The position numbers were made by a program, and so were the translations under genes. Shown in pieces: positions 6,718 through 27,734 of a stretch of DNA of 64,000 nucleotides (position 1 is the first letter of the stretch; each line of letters starts with the position of its first letter). Source of the stretch: a virus; IMG/VR virus record IMGVR_UViG_3300047510_001118, positions 1 through 64,000 of that record; one strand, given 5' to 3'. The notes under the pieces are model-generated. The model saw only the letters and a list, made by a program, of their open reading frames with translations, searched no databases and was not told where the DNA came from.

Positions 6718-6897
6718 CCAGTTTTGGACGGATTGAACATTGTTAAAATAACAACAGAAATTATCAACTGTTTTATTATATGAGTATTTATATATCTTGT
6801 CAATAACCATTGTAAAATACGGCTAAAACGTTGTTTTTTAGCAACAGCAATAAGAAAATGCCCAACGATAAATATAAGATAACGAGACGAATTACCT

Positions 6898-8322
6898 ATG
6901 GCCATACGAGTACAACGATCACTTAGACTTGATGCTAAAACCAAAAATGAACTAGATAGACTAACCGGCGCCCGCGGAGAAATCTTCTACGACAATACTG
7001 CTAAAACTCTTAGAGTATTTGACGGGAATACTGCCGGCGGCATGGAGTTGCTCAAAGCAGACTTGAGTAACATAGCAGGCAGCACCGGTGGCGGTGGAGG
7101 CGATGTTGATTTTGGTAATAAAAACGTAGTCGCTACAAGTTTTGAAGGGGATTTAACTGGAGATGTTACTGGTACAGTCAGTGATATTTCTAATCATGAC
7201 CTCGGAGATCTTGGAGATGTAAATGTTACAGGAATACAAAGCGGTCAGGTTCTATATTATACAGGATCTGAATGGCAGGCTACAACACTAGAAAGTACAT
7301 TTAACGGCGGAAACGTCGGTGGTATAACTAACTTTCTAAATGCGTTAGAAAGCTCTTCAACATCAACCGGCGGTGTAGTAGTCAGCGGTGGTTTAGGAAT
7401 TGGTAAGAATACTAGAATCGGCGGTAGCCTATTTGTCACAGATAAATTTACTGTAGCGGCTACTACCGGTAACACTGAAGTATCAGGAACACTAAGAGTA
7501 GGCTCAACAGTCGAAGTTCGCAGTCAAGCAGAATTAAGATTTTTTGATTCTGACAATACACAATACATTTCCCTACGATCTCCAACAAACGTTACAACAA
7601 GTTTGATTTTTACATTGCCGGCCACAGACGGTACGTCCGGCCAGGTTTTAACAACCAACGGCTTGGGGCAGTTAAACTGGGCCACTGTTTCCGGAGGCGG
7701 TGGCGGTGGTGGTGGCGGAACAACACCACCAGGTGGATCAAACTCGCAGGTACAGTTTAACAGCAACGGTGAGTTTGCTGGAGACTCTGACTTCACCTAT
7801 GATCAATTAACAAATACGATCACAGTTGGCACTGTACTTGCTGACATTACTGGCGATCTAACAGGAGATGTCACAGGTAATGTCACAGGAGATGTCACAG
7901 GAGATGTCACAGGTAATGTCACAGGTAATGTCACAGGAGATGTCACATCAACAGGAACTAGTACATTCAGTGATGCTGAGATTTCTGGAGGCAGTATAGA
8001 CAATACTCCAGTGGGTGCGACTACAGCCAATTCGGGAGCGTTTACAACATTAACCAGTAACGGTGCTACAACCTTTACTAACAATACAGATAGTACTAGT
8101 GTAGCAACAGGAGCAGTAAAAGTTTCAGGCGGACTAGGTGTTGCTCTAAACACTAATGTTGGTGGATCAATGACAGTAAATAACACTATTACTTCAAACG
8201 GAAACATTGTTGCTAATTCTAATGTAATAATTAACAACACACCAACGCAGTCTAATCATGCTGCAAATAAGTCATATGTGGACAGTCGTGCGTTAGCCCT
8301 TTCGATAGCATTAGGTGGATAA
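6898..8322 (+). CDS. Tail fibre-like structural protein
   Basis: 474 residues, rich in Gly, Thr, Ser, Asn and Val. The N-terminus (MAIRVQRSLRLDAKTKNELD, then GARGEIFYDN) resembles the attachment region of T4-like marine and freshwater phage fibre proteins. A Gly-rich linker follows (about 250-260), then TGDV/TGNV repeats (about 322-349) and a C-terminal beta-rich region ending NKSYVDSRALALSIALGG. No signal peptide. It starts a plus-strand pair with the 2211-aa gene 13 bp downstream. The ribosome site is weak, so the start is probable rather than certain. Role: virion appendage, possibly receptor contact (inference). Confidence 0.8.
   Translation: MAIRVQRSLRLDAKTKNELDRLTGARGEIFYDNTAKTLRVFDGNTAGGMELLKADLSNIAGSTGGGGGDVDFGNKNVVATSFEGDLTGDVTGTVSDISNHDLGDLGDVNVTGIQSGQVLYYTGSEWQATTLESTFNGGNVGGITNFLNALESSSTSTGGVVVSGGLGIGKNTRIGGSLFVTDKFTVAATTGNTEVSGTLRVGSTVEVRSQAELRFFDSDNTQYISLRSPTNVTTSLIFTLPATDGTSGQVLTTNGLGQLNWATVSGGGGGGGGGTTPPGGSNSQVQFNSNGEFAGDSDFTYDQLTNTITVGTVLADITGDLTGDVTGNVTGDVTGDVTGNVTGNVTGDVTSTGTSTFSDAEISGGSIDNTPVGATTANSGAFTTLTSNGATTFTNNTDSTSVATGAVKVSGGLGVALNTNVGGSMTVNNTITSNGNIVANSNVIINNTPTQSNHAANKSYVDSRALALSIALGG
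7861..7944 (+). repeat. Seven 12-bp tandem repeats in fibre gene
   Basis: Seven in-frame copies of ACAGGAGATGTC or its variant ACAGGTAATGTC encode alternating TGDV and TGNV. Near-identity at DNA level suggests recent expansion or a slippage hot-spot that changes fibre length. Confidence 0.9.
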
Positions 8323-15532: not shown

Positions 15533-15951
15533 TGTGTGTCTCCTTTTGTATTTTTTGCTATTGATTTATAACCATTATAGGTTGGGTGTACGCCATCGGA
15601 ACTTAGAGAATGCTGTCTAGCATCAATGATAAAGTCATTGTATTTTTTAGCAACATTTTGAACTGCGATTCTTTTAGAATCTTTTATTGCCGGTACTATC
15701 CAATAGACTCTATCTGCTTTTACTAAATTTCTCAACGTGTCTAATTCTTCAAACGTATTAACGTTTTTTAGATCGTTTGATCCTAGACTTATAATGATAG
15801 TCTTGGCAGTGTTATTTCCTTTAGTGTGTAATACATGACGATTTACATAGTCATAACTGTTAATACCGCTTTTGGCATAGGTTACACATTCTTTACGAAT
15901 CTGTCCTACACCAACAGCAAGACTATCGCCTAGAATTAAACATTCTAGCAT
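15529..15951 (-). CDS. SGNH/GDSL hydrolase, small
   Basis: 140 residues. Block I is ILGDSLAVGVGQ (catalytic Ser), block III-like SLGSND carries the Asn, and block V is DGVHPTYNGY with the Asp-x-x-His pair, so the triad looks complete. It is shorter than typical SGNH esterases (about 200 aa). No signal peptide. It is wedged between ahpC and ahpD with 1-nt and 4-nt overlaps. The substrate is unknown; such enzymes cleave acyl or acetyl esters of lipids or glycans. Confidence 0.85.
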   Translation of the reverse strand: MLECLILGDSLAVGVGQIRKECVTYAKSGINSYDYVNRHVLHTKGNNTAKTIIISLGSNDLKNVNTFEELDTLRNLVKADRVYWIVPAIKDSKRIAVQNVAKKYNDFIIDARQHSLSSDGVHPTYNGYKSIAKNTKGDTQ

Positions 15952-16484
15952 TAGAGAGTCTCCCCTCCGATAGTACGATTACAAGCGCACTTCTCACCAG
16001 TTTGAAGTGCGTCTAGGATACGAAGTGTTTCGTCACTGCTACGACCAACGTTCAAGTTGTTGACAGTAACGTGTTGGATAACGTTGTCTGGATCAACGAT
16101 GAATGTGGCGCGAAGTGCGGCACCTGCTGGAGCATAGAAAACTCCTAATTGATCGATAAGACTTAACTCACCACGCTGTGTGTCAGCGAACTGAATATGT
16201 TTGATCTTCTTGAGATCTTCGTGTGAAGCCTGCCATGCTAGTTTACAGAACTCGTTGTCTGTAGATCCTGTGAGCAATACAGCATCACGATCAGCAAAGT
16301 CTTGAAATAGTTTATCGTAAGCAACGATTTCAGTTGGACATACAAATGTAAAGTCCTTTGGGTAGTAAGCAATTACTTTCCATTTACCCGCAAATGATTC
16401 TTCTGTGATTGTAAAGAAATCATCTTTACCTGGGTTGACGCCTGTGACGGCAAATTTTTCTAACTTATTACCTACTGTTTTCAT
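15951..16484 (-). CDS. ahpC: AhpC-type peroxiredoxin
   Basis: 177 residues, close to the 187 of typical AhpC. The peroxidatic cysteine lies in DFTFVCPTEI (about 44-53) and the resolving cysteine in the C-terminal EKCACNR. It reduces hydrogen and organic peroxides; the nearby AhpD could recycle it. The start follows AAGGAGAATTAA. The promoter at 16540-16569 faces it. It heads the AhpC-SGNH-AhpD transcript, which ends at 14974-15003. Confidence 0.95.
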   Translation of the reverse strand: MKTVGNKLEKFAVTGVNPGKDDFFTITEESFAGKWKVIAYYPKDFTFVCPTEIVAYDKLFQDFADRDAVLLTGSTDNEFCKLAWQASHEDLKKIKHIQFADTQRGELSLIDQLGVFYAPAGAALRATFIVDPDNVIQHVTVNNLNVGRSSDETLRILDALQTGEKCACNRTIGGETL

Positions 16485-17310: not shown

Positions 17311-17367
17311 AACTATGCATATTAACGCATTAGTAAACAAAACGTAAGTCTTTTTGGTGAAACTGAT

Positions 17368-17394
17368 AAAAGAAAAGGCTCCGAAGAGCCTTTT
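17368..17394 (-). terminator. Terminator of tmRNA coding piece
   Basis: On the minus strand AAAAGGCTC-TTCG-GAGCCTTTT with a UUCG-type loop is followed by CTTTT, directly after the tmRNA coding piece. Confidence 0.85.
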
Positions 17395-17396
17395 CA

Positions 17397-17599
17397 CTAT
17401 TTTGGGTTACAAGGTATAGTTACCCCGGAGCTGCAGTTTCTTAGGCTGCTAGTTCAAAACGCTTGCCTGTTACAGCGAAGTCAGTTTTGAAATACTCAAA
17501 TGTAGATGCGTTTGCATTTACTAGTTTTGCTTGATTAACGGTCATCGCCTACCGTGTTGCCTCTTTCGCTATCTCGCCATGTCGAAACCGGTCGGGCCC
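17397..17599 (-). ncRNA. ssrA: Two-piece tmRNA, coding piece (permuted ssrA)
   Basis: The 5' end GGGCCCGACCGGTTTCGAC carries the conserved tmRNA GGxUUCGAC motif. GGGCCCG pairs with CGGGTCC of the acceptor piece at 17689-17756 (7 pairs, one G-U). A tag frame runs 17515-17441: resume codon GCA, 24 sense codons, stop TAA. The peptide begins ANAST and ends FELAA; the Leu-Ala-Ala tail is the classic ClpXP degron. In normal ssrA the acceptor part lies at the 3' end; here it comes first, so the gene is circularly permuted as in some bacterial lineages. The exact 3' end is approximate; a terminator follows. Confidence 0.93.
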
Positions 17600-17600
17600 A

Positions 17601-17675
17601 TCATAAAAGGACTAGAGCAAATACTACGAGTACAACTACTACACCTATTCCTAGATGAGTTAGATCATCGTTCAT
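17601..17675 (-). CDS. 24-aa membrane peptide inside the tmRNA locus
   Basis: A 24-codon frame starting MNDDLTHLGIG and ending in an almost unbroken run of Val, Leu, Phe and Ala that would span a membrane. The ribosome site AAGGAGA lies 5 nt before the ATG. The frame occupies nearly all of the segment between the acceptor piece's CCA (17689) and the coding piece's 5' G (17599), ending 1 nt before that G. Translation would have to precede processing of the pre-tmRNA. Not recognised. It could be a small toxin-like or membrane-modulating peptide, or chance (less likely given the ribosome site and composition). Confidence 0.65.
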   Translation of the reverse strand: MNDDLTHLGIGVVVVLVVFALVLL

Positions 17676-17688
17676 ACTAATCTCCTTA

Positions 17689-17756
17689 TGGTGGACCCGG
17701 GGGGAATCGAACCCCCGTCCACAACGCCTTCACTACGAAGGAATTACAACAATACC
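17689..17756 (-). ncRNA. ssrA: Two-piece tmRNA, acceptor piece
   Basis: Contains a T arm (GGGGG-TTCGATT-CCCCC), the acceptor strand CGGGTCC, discriminator A and encoded CCA, plus a CCTTC/GAAGG hairpin near its start. A normal 5' half cannot precede it because the cold-shock gene's stop codon adjoins at 17757-17759. Its acceptor strand instead pairs with the coding piece 90 nt downstream. No promoter is seen between it and the cold-shock gene, so it is probably processed from the csp transcript (inference). Confidence 0.92.
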
Positions 17757-17960
17757 TTAGGCTGGCTGAATATTGCTAGCCTGTTGACCTTTCATGCCCA
17801 TAGTTACTTCAAACCTTACACTCTGTCCTTCTTGTAGGCTTTTGAAGCCACTTGACTGAATCTGTGAAAAGTGAGCAAATAAGTCTGCGCCACCATCGTC
17901 CGGTGTAATGAACCCAAAACCTTTGGCGTCGTTAAACCATTTTACTTTTCCTGTTACCAT
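17757..17960 (-). CDS. cspA: Cold-shock-domain RNA-binding protein
   Basis: 67 residues, the standard length of a single cold-shock domain. RNP1 is KGFGFI (about 13-18) and RNP2 LFAHF (about 27-31). The start follows AAGGAAAGAAAGTAAA. It binds single-stranded RNA or DNA, and in bacteria acts as an RNA chaperone or antiterminator. Its stop codon touches the tmRNA acceptor piece, so the two are probably one transcript. Confidence 0.95.
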
Positions 17961-20478: not shown

Positions 20479-21165
20479 TTATTCCTTACGACCGCCAAAT
20501 AACTGTAGTAGGCTTAAGAATAGATTAATAAAGTCTAAGTAAAGTGTTAGAGCACCGGCTACTTCCATTTTACCATCGTTGTCAAAACTGACCATTTCAC
20601 GGATCTTTTGTGTGTCGTAGGCAGTAAGGCCTAAAAACACAATCACAGCAATGGCGCTGATTACCATCTGCATAACTGTGCTACCAATAAAAATATTAAC
20701 GATACTAGCAATGATGATAGCGATAAGACCAATAAACATAAACTGTCCAATTGAGTCTAAATTCTTTTTAGTGAAGTAACCATAAAAACTCATTACCCCA
20801 AATAAAATAGCCGCACTCATAAATGCTGATACAATACTGCCCATATTGTAAACTACAAATATAGTAGCAAAACTTAATCCCATTAATGCGGCAAATCCGT
20901 GTAAGAAAATCTGTAAAGAAGATTTACTCATTTTCTCCATGCTAAAACTTACTGCTAAAATTGCGACCAGTGGAGCAAAAATTACTACCCACTTCATCGC
21001 ACCAGTAAAGAAAAATGCCATTAAACTGGCATTAGTTCCTACCAAGAAACTAACAATCATCGAAGTAAGCACTGCCAAACCCATATGGCCATATACTCTC
21101 GACATGGCCGAATTGATTTGTGATGCTGAACGATAAATTCCACCTGTATAACTTGTTCCAAACAT
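20479..21165 (-). CDS. Bax inhibitor-1/YccA family membrane protein
   Basis: 228 residues with about seven hydrophobic segments and the family's C-terminal GLTAYDTQKI(R)EM signature (about 178-189), followed by LTLYLDFINLFLSLLQLFG. In bacteria YccA interacts with the FtsH protease and related proteins form pH-sensitive channels. An inner-membrane protein; in a phage it may tune FtsH or membrane ion leakage (inference). The start follows AGGAGGTATCAAT, a very strong ribosome site. Confidence 0.93.
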   Translation of the reverse strand: MFGTSYTGGIYRSASQINSAMSRVYGHMGLAVLTSMIVSFLVGTNASLMAFFFTGAMKWVVIFAPLVAILAVSFSMEKMSKSSLQIFLHGFAALMGLSFATIFVVYNMGSIVSAFMSAAILFGVMSFYGYFTKKNLDSIGQFMFIGLIAIIIASIVNIFIGSTVMQMVISAIAVIVFLGLTAYDTQKIREMVSFDNDGKMEVAGALTLYLDFINLFLSLLQLFGGRKE

Positions 21166-21182
21166 ATTGATACCTCCTATGC

Positions 21183-21746
21183 TTATATTATATGATCTGC
21201 TACATTAAAGTCAACCACTTCTTGTGCCGTTAGGTAAACATCACTGGCTGGAAGCAGTTTTGATTTAATTTTGGTTTGATTTAGGCCTGTAGAATCTTTG
21301 AGTATGTCGATCATCTTTTGATTACAGATGTCGTTTTCTTTCATAGTGGCTTTGAGATCGTGATACTTGTCTTCCATAGTTTCTGTAAATTGGTGACACA
21401 TAAAACTAGTATTCTTACTGGCGTATCGTTGACCTTTATCTCCTGAGGTAAAAATCAAAAAAGCCGCACTCATACAAGAACCTATGGCCACTGTTCTAAT
21501 TACATGATGACTACTGCGCATCGTATCAATTAACGCAAACGCTTGATATAAATCTCCGCCTGTGCTGTTAATGTATAAAGTCAAAGTTTTTTCTTTTGAA
21601 TCTAAATTCTCATAAAGGATCCATTTTATAACATCACCGATAGAGTCTTCATCAATCTCTCCAAAGAGATAATGTATAGAATTTTCTAGTAGTCTAAGAT
21701 CTATTCTCTGTTCGGCATCAAATTCGTCAATCTTTTTCATCTTCAC
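21183..21746 (-). CDS. clpP: ClpP-like serine protease
   Basis: 187 residues, slightly shorter than cellular ClpP. The nucleophile lies in AIGSCMSAAF (about 93-102) and the catalytic His in FMCHQF (about 121-126); LYINSTGGDLYQAF is the typical substrate-groove strand. ClpP forms the proteolytic chamber used with ClpX or ClpA. A phage ClpS (37331-37645) and a phage tmRNA with an LAA-ending tag are in the same window. It could alternatively serve as a prohead protease, but those usually look different. Confidence 0.9.
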   Translation of the reverse strand: MKMKKIDEFDAEQRIDLRLLENSIHYLFGEIDEDSIGDVIKWILYENLDSKEKTLTLYINSTGGDLYQAFALIDTMRSSHHVIRTVAIGSCMSAAFLIFTSGDKGQRYASKNTSFMCHQFTETMEDKYHDLKATMKENDICNQKMIDILKDSTGLNQTKIKSKLLPASDVYLTAQEVVDFNVADHII

Positions 21747-25531: not shown

Positions 25532-25695
25532 TATCGACAAATGCTAAAACTTTTAACGCCGTTTAAACTAAACGTCTTTAGATAATTTTCCATGTCATCA
25601 TTATAGGCTATCATTTTGGCCGGTGTCATAAATTTGTATTGTAACATCAACCATACAGTGTAGTCAAGCCACCAATCTATAGGTGTGTATATCAT
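25531..25695 (-). CDS. 54-aa small protein
   Basis: Starts MIYTPIDWWLDYTVWLMLQY. ATGA overlap with the cyclase gene's stop and TAATG overlap with the following gene show coupling. Aromatic N-terminus, basic C-terminus; could associate with membranes. Not recognised. Confidence 0.65.
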   Translation of the reverse strand: MIYTPIDWWLDYTVWLMLQYKFMTPAKMIAYNDDMENYLKTFSLNGVKSFSICR

Positions 25696-27734
25696 TTTTC
25701 GTGTGCGATAAATTCGCCGTTCCAGTTGGCTCCTAAATCTTGTTGTTTCATAAACTCACAACGTTCAATCCAGATCTTATAATACTTGTCCATCTGTCCA
25801 CCAAATAGTCCTTTCATCTTAGCACACATGGCGGCTGCTTCGTCAAACTTTTTCTGTTTATACAAGGCATGCATTTTGTCATGTTGTTCCTTGTCTTTAC
25901 TATAATCTTCGCCACGTGTACGAATTACTGTGTAAATTAAATCTGCTACAGTTTTACCCTTAGGCTGTAAGTTGTCTAATAGCAAGTAGAAGAAGTCGTC
26001 TTTGGTTCTGTTGTATGTTTCAGCACCAATGATAGCCAACACTCCGTAGGCTTTACAACGAGCTTCTAATCGAGCCGCAGTACTAACCATGTCACCTAAG
26101 ATGTCGTAACTGTGTCTATCAGTTGATCCCATCTCGCCAATAAAGCCAATGCCTGTGTTACAACCCCAACCCATAGCCGCAGGCGGTAATCCTTGTGCTT
26201 CCATTTCTTTGGTATAAGCATCAACGGCATCCAACATCTCTAAACCAACTTTAACAATAGTGTGTGCGTGATTGGGATCATCAATCGGAGCACCATGTAT
26301 GTGCATACTCGCATCGCCTACATACTTAATAACCATACCTTTGTTATCCATAATAGGTTTACTGATGCTGTCCATGTAGCCGTTCATATATTTGCCAAGT
26401 CCAGCAACATCGTCTCCATAGTGTTCACCAATCGGTGTGAAGCCGCGCAAGTCACTAAACATAACTGATACGTCTTTGCGAACACCACGCTTGATTAAGT
26501 CTGGATCCTTTTGTAGCATCTCTACTACTTCTTTAGAGCAGTAGCCAGCAAACTGTTTCTTAATTGCCTGCTTCTGTAAGAATTCGCTTACAAACTTAAC
26601 GCCATAACAATGAAGAGCAACGATAATAAGCCCAAACGTGATTGCAGTCGCGTCCGCCAAGACGAGCCAATTATTGAAAGCGTAGATAGTACCAGGAACG
26701 ATGGCACCAATAGTAACCACAGTAGCACCAATGCCAACATAAGTCCACCTCGATAAGAAAATTAATAATATGCCAATTCCTAGTAATGCTAGAATTTCAA
26801 CACCGGCGGCATAGTCAGGTCGTTGAATTGTTACACCATTTATCATTGTGCCTAATACTGCGGCTTGTACATCCTGCGGCCATGTTCCTTGAACTGGTGT
26901 TGGCACAGGGTTACCTAAACCTGTAGCGGCAACACCTACAATAACTACAGCACCAGCAAAGTCTTTAGGAAGGTTAACTGCTGAAGCAGACTTTGAACGT
27001 TGACTCCAGTCAATCCATACACGACCTTTGTCGTCTGTGGCAATAGGACCAAACTTTGGTATGCGCATTTTTTCTACGCCGCCTTCGAACAACTTAATCT
27101 GTGTTGTTGAATCTCCTGCAGCCACACGTAATGCTTCCATAGCAATACTAGGATAGACTACACCGTCAACGGCAATTACCAAAGGCATTCGTCTTACTAC
27201 GTTGTCGTTTTCTTCTTCGGTGTGAATAGTTCCTGTGCCAACTGCACGACTTTCAAGCACAGGTACGTTGGCCATTATGCCAGCATACTGTGTTATTTGA
27301 TTAGCATACTCGTTTTTAATTACTGCTGTACTAGGTTGTCGAGGAGTATTCTTATTTTTATTTTCTGGAGTGTTTGGCAGTATTACAGGAAACTTGTTCA
27401 TAGTTTCTGCTAGGACACGATCCTTACCAAATCTATCTTCCTCTGACAGTAGTATATTAAACACAACCAGTCCTGCGTTACGTTTGTACAAGTCTTCAAT
27501 TATCTTAGCGTAAACATCTCTAGGGAAAGGATACTGCCCGTATTTGGCTATAGTATCTTCATCAATGTTTACTGTGTAAATGTTGTTTTCAGTAGGTGCT
27601 TTGGCCGTTATTAATTCGTCAAAGTATTTCAAACGAACATTCTCAACAAACGAAGGGTCTGCAATTCGTATGCCCACTACTAACGCTAGGGTTAGTAGGG
27701 CAGTCCAAGGGCTTAAAAGAAATTTTTTCATCAT
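25692..27734 (-). CDS. CHASE2-domain adenylate/guanylate cyclase
   Basis: 680 residues. One N-terminal membrane helix (about 9-26), a CHASE2 sensor domain (about 30-300), three membrane helices (about 310-385), then a class III cyclase domain (about 415-600). Metal-binding Asp residues lie in FSDLRGFTP and KYVGDASMHI. Lys of KYVGD and Asp of YDILGD fit ATP specificity. The usual transition-state Asn in G-x-x-V-N-x-A-A-R is replaced by Ser (VSTAARLE), while the Arg is kept, so activity may be reduced. The C-terminus (about 620-670) looks like a helical TPR-like tail. It would make cAMP at the host membrane (inference). Confidence 0.92.
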   Translation of the reverse strand: MMKKFLLSPWTALLTLALVVGIRIADPSFVENVRLKYFDELITAKAPTENNIYTVNIDEDTIAKYGQYPFPRDVYAKIIEDLYKRNAGLVVFNILLSEEDRFGKDRVLAETMNKFPVILPNTPENKNKNTPRQPSTAVIKNEYANQITQYAGIMANVPVLESRAVGTGTIHTEEENDNVVRRMPLVIAVDGVVYPSIAMEALRVAAGDSTTQIKLFEGGVEKMRIPKFGPIATDDKGRVWIDWSQRSKSASAVNLPKDFAGAVVIVGVAATGLGNPVPTPVQGTWPQDVQAAVLGTMINGVTIQRPDYAAGVEILALLGIGILLIFLSRWTYVGIGATVVTIGAIVPGTIYAFNNWLVLADATAITFGLIIVALHCYGVKFVSEFLQKQAIKKQFAGYCSKEVVEMLQKDPDLIKRGVRKDVSVMFSDLRGFTPIGEHYGDDVAGLGKYMNGYMDSISKPIMDNKGMVIKYVGDASMHIHGAPIDDPNHAHTIVKVGLEMLDAVDAYTKEMEAQGLPPAAMGWGCNTGIGFIGEMGSTDRHSYDILGDMVSTAARLEARCKAYGVLAIIGAETYNRTKDDFFYLLLDNLQPKGKTVADLIYTVIRTRGEDYSKDKEQHDKMHALYKQKKFDEAAAMCAKMKGLFGGQMDKYYKIWIERCEFMKQQDLGANWNGEFIAHEK

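Follow-up and report, generated by a model that had tools for sequence, protein, structure and literature searches.

A phage two-piece tmRNA gene with a conserved small-protein reading frame in its intervening segment

The minus strand of the window (the 64,000 nucleotides analysed, which open a virus record of 278,126 bases) carries a complete permuted, two-piece tmRNA gene. Between its two pieces, in a segment that is absent from the mature RNA, lies a 24-codon reading frame with a ribosome-binding site of its own, and the corresponding segment in related viral loci carries either the same frame or unrelated ones. We consider it likely that this is a working phage two-piece tmRNA whose intervening segment serves as a cargo slot for small proteins. 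The 278,126-base record also has a terminase match, an endolysin, tail-type proteins, and 27 tRNA genes.

A cmscan search of Rfam matched RF04321 (tmRNA_permuted) at 17751–17441 on the minus strand (132.1 bits, cut-off 47; E 1.2e-25; full length, model positions 1–213) and RF01850 (beta_tmRNA) at 17792–17371 on the same strand (126.3 bits, cut-off 84), and ARAGORN placed a permuted tmRNA with a 24-codon tag ending FELAA at c[17350,17781]. Together with direct reading of the sequence, these matches place the acceptor piece at 17689–17751 (minus strand; 5′ end approximate), comprising the T arm GGACGGGGGTTCGATTCCCCCC, the acceptor strand CGGGTCC (17699–17693), the discriminator A (17692), and CCA (17691–17689). 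The coding piece, placed by the two Rfam models and ARAGORN at 17396–17599 (minus strand; 3′ end approximate), starts with GGGCCCG at 17599 and has GGTTTCGAC at 17589–17581. All seven pairs of the acceptor stem are intact, the third being G·U (G3·U70); a G-U third pair is the alanine identity pair of tmRNA. The tag reading frame called by ARAGORN, ANASTFEYFKTDFAVTGKRFELAA followed by a TAA stop (17441–17515, minus strand), runs from the resume codon GCA to the FELAA end. The minus-strand order is csp, the acceptor piece, the intervening segment, the coding piece with the tag frame, and an intrinsic terminator at 17366–17395 (a 10-bp stem at 17395–17372 and a T run). The preliminary description, made from the letters and a list of open reading frames, had read this locus as a two-piece tmRNA with the acceptor piece first, piece ends near 17689 and 17599, a seven-nucleotide pairing between the two pieces, the coding-piece motif, and the same GCA-to-FELAA tag, and had proposed Rfam models and ARAGORN as a check; the covariance-model scores above both cut-offs and the positive ARAGORN call bear out that reading. 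It had overlooked that the intervening segment is coding, and its surprise at a two-piece tmRNA in a phage was unwarranted, since 53 predicted examples from phage genomes, 50 of which came from marine or aquatic samples, had been reported in 2022 with the OM43 phage Melnitz (PMC9004378).

The core pattern GGCAACNCGGTAGGCGANGACCGTNAANCAAGCAA matched at least 119 viral contigs, whereas a looser form of it matched a single contig among 84,980 species genomes; this tmRNA lineage is thus essentially viral in the data examined. The one species-genome match is a contig of an uncultured "Alteromonadales" MAG (L244), which bears a phage-type spacer reading frame and is itself probably viral in origin. 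In the search for a host, the coding piece had no match in 50,697 phage records. No SmpB match was found in the 278-kb record, which may be incomplete; the phage tmRNA would hence rely on SmpB of the host. Among the related tmRNAs the tags vary widely, yet most end in AA, as bacterial tmRNA tags do, and they vary independently of the peptide encoded in the intervening segment. Several phage tags (L153, L236, L458, and others) are 22–33 residues long, some with a second AN-like start inside, e.g., ANADTFDFSAMSFTGNTVRGAANESRFALAA; bacterial tags are usually near 10 residues. A few ARAGORN calls with odd tags (L305, L109, and L019) were judged to be probable miscalls and given no weight.

The intervening segment spans 89 nt (17600–17688, minus strand), as delimited by the ARAGORN domains and the sequence, and constitutes the part removed from the mature tmRNA. 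It begins TAAGGAGATTAGTATG and ends CTTTTATGAT, directly followed by the GGG of the coding piece. An AAGGAG ribosome-binding site (17682–17687, minus strand) lies 6 bases 5′ of the ATG of a frame of 24 codons plus TGA (17601–17675, minus strand), and the TGA ends one base before the coding piece. The encoded peptide, MNDDLTHLGIGVVVVLVVFALVLL, would be a single-span membrane peptide and is predicted to insert into the membrane. It had no PHROGs match to E 1 and no tblastn match in the 50,697 phage records. Gene callers that mask RNA genes or discard very short reading frames would overlook it.

Relatives of the peptide are numerous among viral contigs. The pattern CCACCATAAGGAGATTNNNATG matched 34 of them, and all except L447 encode a hydrophobic peptide of 21–24 residues in a tmRNA context. 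The set used for family analysis (34 members, including the window, L161, L055, and L229) holds 23 distinct peptides, and in 34/34 the stop codon is TGA, with a single base between it and the coding piece. The segments are mostly 80, 83, 86, or 89 nt long, i.e., they differ by whole codons. Specificity was examined with a pattern that contains no tmRNA sequence, the codons of VFALVLL and the stop: it matched 57 contigs, and 29 of the matches encode a family peptide with a tmRNA coding piece directly after the stop, the remainder being unrelated frames, except for L468. There, a possible free-standing relative of the peptide, MFDPEDKTLVNFAIGIITCVIVFALVLL, lies at a contig end outside any tmRNA.

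The window differs from L039 by 8 synonymous and 3 nonsynonymous changes and from L356 by 14 and 7, respectively. Across nine disjoint pairs we counted 59 synonymous and 17 nonsynonymous changes against 20.6 synonymous expected; the nominal p (7e-20) exaggerates the strength of this result, because these pairs were chosen for similar peptides. The loci are also related and partly redundant. All-pairs pN/pS values are independent of the choice of pairs: in the 24-residue set pN/pS is 0.40 in frame vs 0.86 and 1.92 in the other frames, and in the 22-residue set 0.16 vs 0.74 and 2.64, while in the small 23-residue set frames 0 and 1 are not separated. The comparisons indicate in-frame purifying selection, and given the synonymous excess in the nine pairs, the peptide is very probably both translated and selected.

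In other phages this position can hold unrelated small reading frames. Among 131 unique viral intervening segments, gathered regardless of reading-frame content, 23 have an SD-preceded frame that starts with ATG and spans 15 codons or more (200 shuffles gave 1.6 on average and 7 at most), and 12 have one of 30 codons or more (0.4 in shuffles), an excess that is not a strict probability because the sequences are related. Several unrelated families are represented among the encoded proteins, some of them further single-span peptides and others 47–73 residues long. Pairs from these other families likewise have a synonymous excess (L027/L069, p 2e-6; L419/L340, p 5e-6; L350/L383, p 0.001). In 33 of the 49 segments bearing a frame the stop lies one base before the coding piece, and in 7/49 it lies 12–16 bases before it. 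The remaining 9/49 (e.g., L030, L133, L368, L140, L144, L132, and L222) have no earlier stop, and the frame continues into the coding piece. Cleavage by RNase P would turn such a frame into a nonstop message and a possible target of tmRNA tagging, a situation reminiscent of the control of ArfA. Control segments from alphaproteobacteria were mostly 20–57 nt long and without reading frames in the set sampled; searches around the "Alteromonadales" MAG yielded few true permuted tmRNAs and one among betaproteobacteria no usable set, so that this bacterial control is mainly alphaproteobacterial. Six cultured phages with permuted tmRNAs (XacN1, UF_RH6, BUCT628, QDWS595, PHB04, and QDWS359) had no spacer frame with a ribosome site. 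In Xanthomonas phage XacN1 (L424), two tRNAs with CUA anticodons (321–479) lie about 1 kb upstream of the permuted tmRNA (1475–1895), which is not annotated in the record.

Directly upstream of the tmRNA is csp, a gene for a 67-residue cold-shock protein (17757–17960, minus strand; PF00313, E 7.5e-30), whose reading frame ends at 17757, only a few bases from the tmRNA. In about 44 loci, whose tags and segments differ, a csp gene precedes the tmRNA, usually directly; some of these loci are redundant contigs. The csp–tmRNA link noted earlier thus holds beyond this record. One such locus, L123, has an extra frame between csp and tmRNA (6840–7510) that by eye resembles a GIY-YIG homing endonuclease. 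A peroxiredoxin gene (15951–16484 in the window) has counterparts close to the tmRNA in about 42 viral loci, again with some redundant contigs. Further upstream, the window encodes a ClpP-family protease (21183–21746, minus strand; PF00574, E 2.6e-31, with phmmer matches to ClpPs in the PDB), which is present as a single copy in the 278-kb record, and next to it a Bax1-I family membrane protein (20479–21165). A protein with CHASE2 and adenylate/guanylate cyclase domains is encoded at 25692–27734.

In the model we favor, the tmRNA would probably be co-transcribed with csp, the transcript ending at the intrinsic terminator, and its maturation and function would depend on RNase P, tRNA 3′-end processing, alanyl-tRNA synthetase, SmpB, and ribosomes of the host. 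The segment excised during maturation would double as a gene, with AAGGAG, ATG, 24 codons, and a TGA separated from the expected RNase P site by a single base. A ribosome sitting on this stop codon would mask the RNase P site, so that translation is expected to compete with maturation. Phages might in this manner use the segment to produce small accessory proteins together with a rescue RNA, and the diversity of the reading frames makes such an accessory role the most likely one for the segment. A further-reaching version, in which the segments form a dedicated slot that makes effector synthesis and rescue-RNA synthesis mutually exclusive on one transcript, ties a membrane effector to the state of host translation, and, where the frame enters the coding piece, lets processing itself yield a nonstop message open to tagging, strikes us as unlikely.

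Other readings of the same data have to be weighed. The reading frame could be incidental to a noncoding spacer in an ordinary rescue RNA, its conservation following from RNA constraints such as a closing helix and processing sites. Phage segments without a reading frame do behave in this manner: their ends pair with a mean helix of 8.96 vs 5.79 when re-paired (maximum 6.11), which suggests that the segment normally caps the acceptor stem, and both ends are conserved in phages lacking the frame (L124). Segments with a frame have weak end pairing (7.06 vs 6.54 re-paired, maximum 6.96). Shuffled versions of the window segment fold just as well, so that a closing helix is weakly supported there and RNA structure as the sole cause of its conservation was rejected. 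The synonymous excess, the frame specificity of pN/pS, the whole-codon length differences, and the excess of reading frames over shuffles likewise speak against a noncoding spacer, which we regard as highly improbable. The AAGGA at the start of the segment, which is also the ribosome site, could pair with UCCUU at 17611–17607, near the 3′ end. Such pairing, and the stop codons that so often end a single base short of the presumed RNase P site, would suit a cis-acting leader: its translation would delay maturation, tmRNA would be produced as initiation declines, and the peptide would have no task of its own. However, amino acids conserved amid many synonymous changes, and unrelated proteins, up to 73 residues long, at this position, point to a function in trans, and the leader appears quite improbable.

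The nearby ClpP invites the proposal that tmRNA and protease form a dedicated tag-and-degrade pathway. The preliminary description had pointed to this gene, which is indeed present 3.4 kb upstream; the link is positional only and extends to about 11 related loci (some of them redundant contigs), in which a close homolog lies on the same strand 2.1–3.7 kb upstream of the tmRNA. By inspection, the window ClpP retains the expected Ser and His motifs. Against a dedicated pathway, several other genes intervene between ClpP and tmRNA, many related tmRNAs lack a ClpP within the flanking stretch covered, and more distant ClpPs are located elsewhere in other related loci; the widely varying tags with their mostly bacterial-like AA ends also fit it poorly. 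We hold this pathway to be improbable, and a small-protein cargo slot within a working tmRNA gene remains our preferred reading.

The spacer of a two-piece tmRNA is described as merely absent from the mature RNA; here, in a phage lineage, it is a conserved small-protein gene. The small proteins that share this slot, many of them unrelated, provide a well-defined list of phage effector candidates, and the locus offers a tractable case where translation may compete with the maturation of a rescue RNA. As csp and tmRNA keep recurring together, with tag and spacer cargo each varying independently, the finding also bears on why phages carry tmRNA.

Phage two-piece tmRNA is already known in kind, and huge phages with tmRNAs have been published (PMC7162821); the coding intervening segment is the new part. 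Protein genes in permuted spacers are mentioned neither in the 2025 tmRNA database paper (PMC11915505) nor in a 2014 survey, and we found no earlier report of a protein-coding tmRNA spacer among open-licence papers, although one may exist elsewhere. The tmRNAs of Melnitz and other marine phages (PMC9004378) share with the present one a permuted gene in a phage and, presumably, the use of host SmpB. However, the Melnitz tmRNA is reported to be alphaproteobacterial-like, with a glutamine riboswitch, with no spacer frame mentioned, whereas the window tmRNA is beta-like by Rfam, stands behind csp, and has a coding spacer. The betaproteobacterial two-piece tmRNA (RF01850) is the best older Rfam model, scoring above its cut-off, and resembles ours in the AAGG that follows CCA in its consensus and in a 3′ stem-loop; the window tmRNA differs in its long coding spacer, its 24-residue tag, and a core pattern nearly absent from the 84,980 species genomes. 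In intron-type tmRNA genes with homing endonuclease frames (PMC11915505), a protein gene is similarly nested in a removed part of the tmRNA gene, but there the removed part is a group I intron, located in the T loop and bearing a LAGLIDADG gene, while the window tmRNA has no intron and the proteins in the phage segments are small and unrelated. A precedent for another gene nested in the same spacer is a tRNA-Ala inside one permuted tmRNA (PMC11915505); there, it is an RNA gene in a single, nominally archaeal MAG, and here, a conserved protein gene in many phages.
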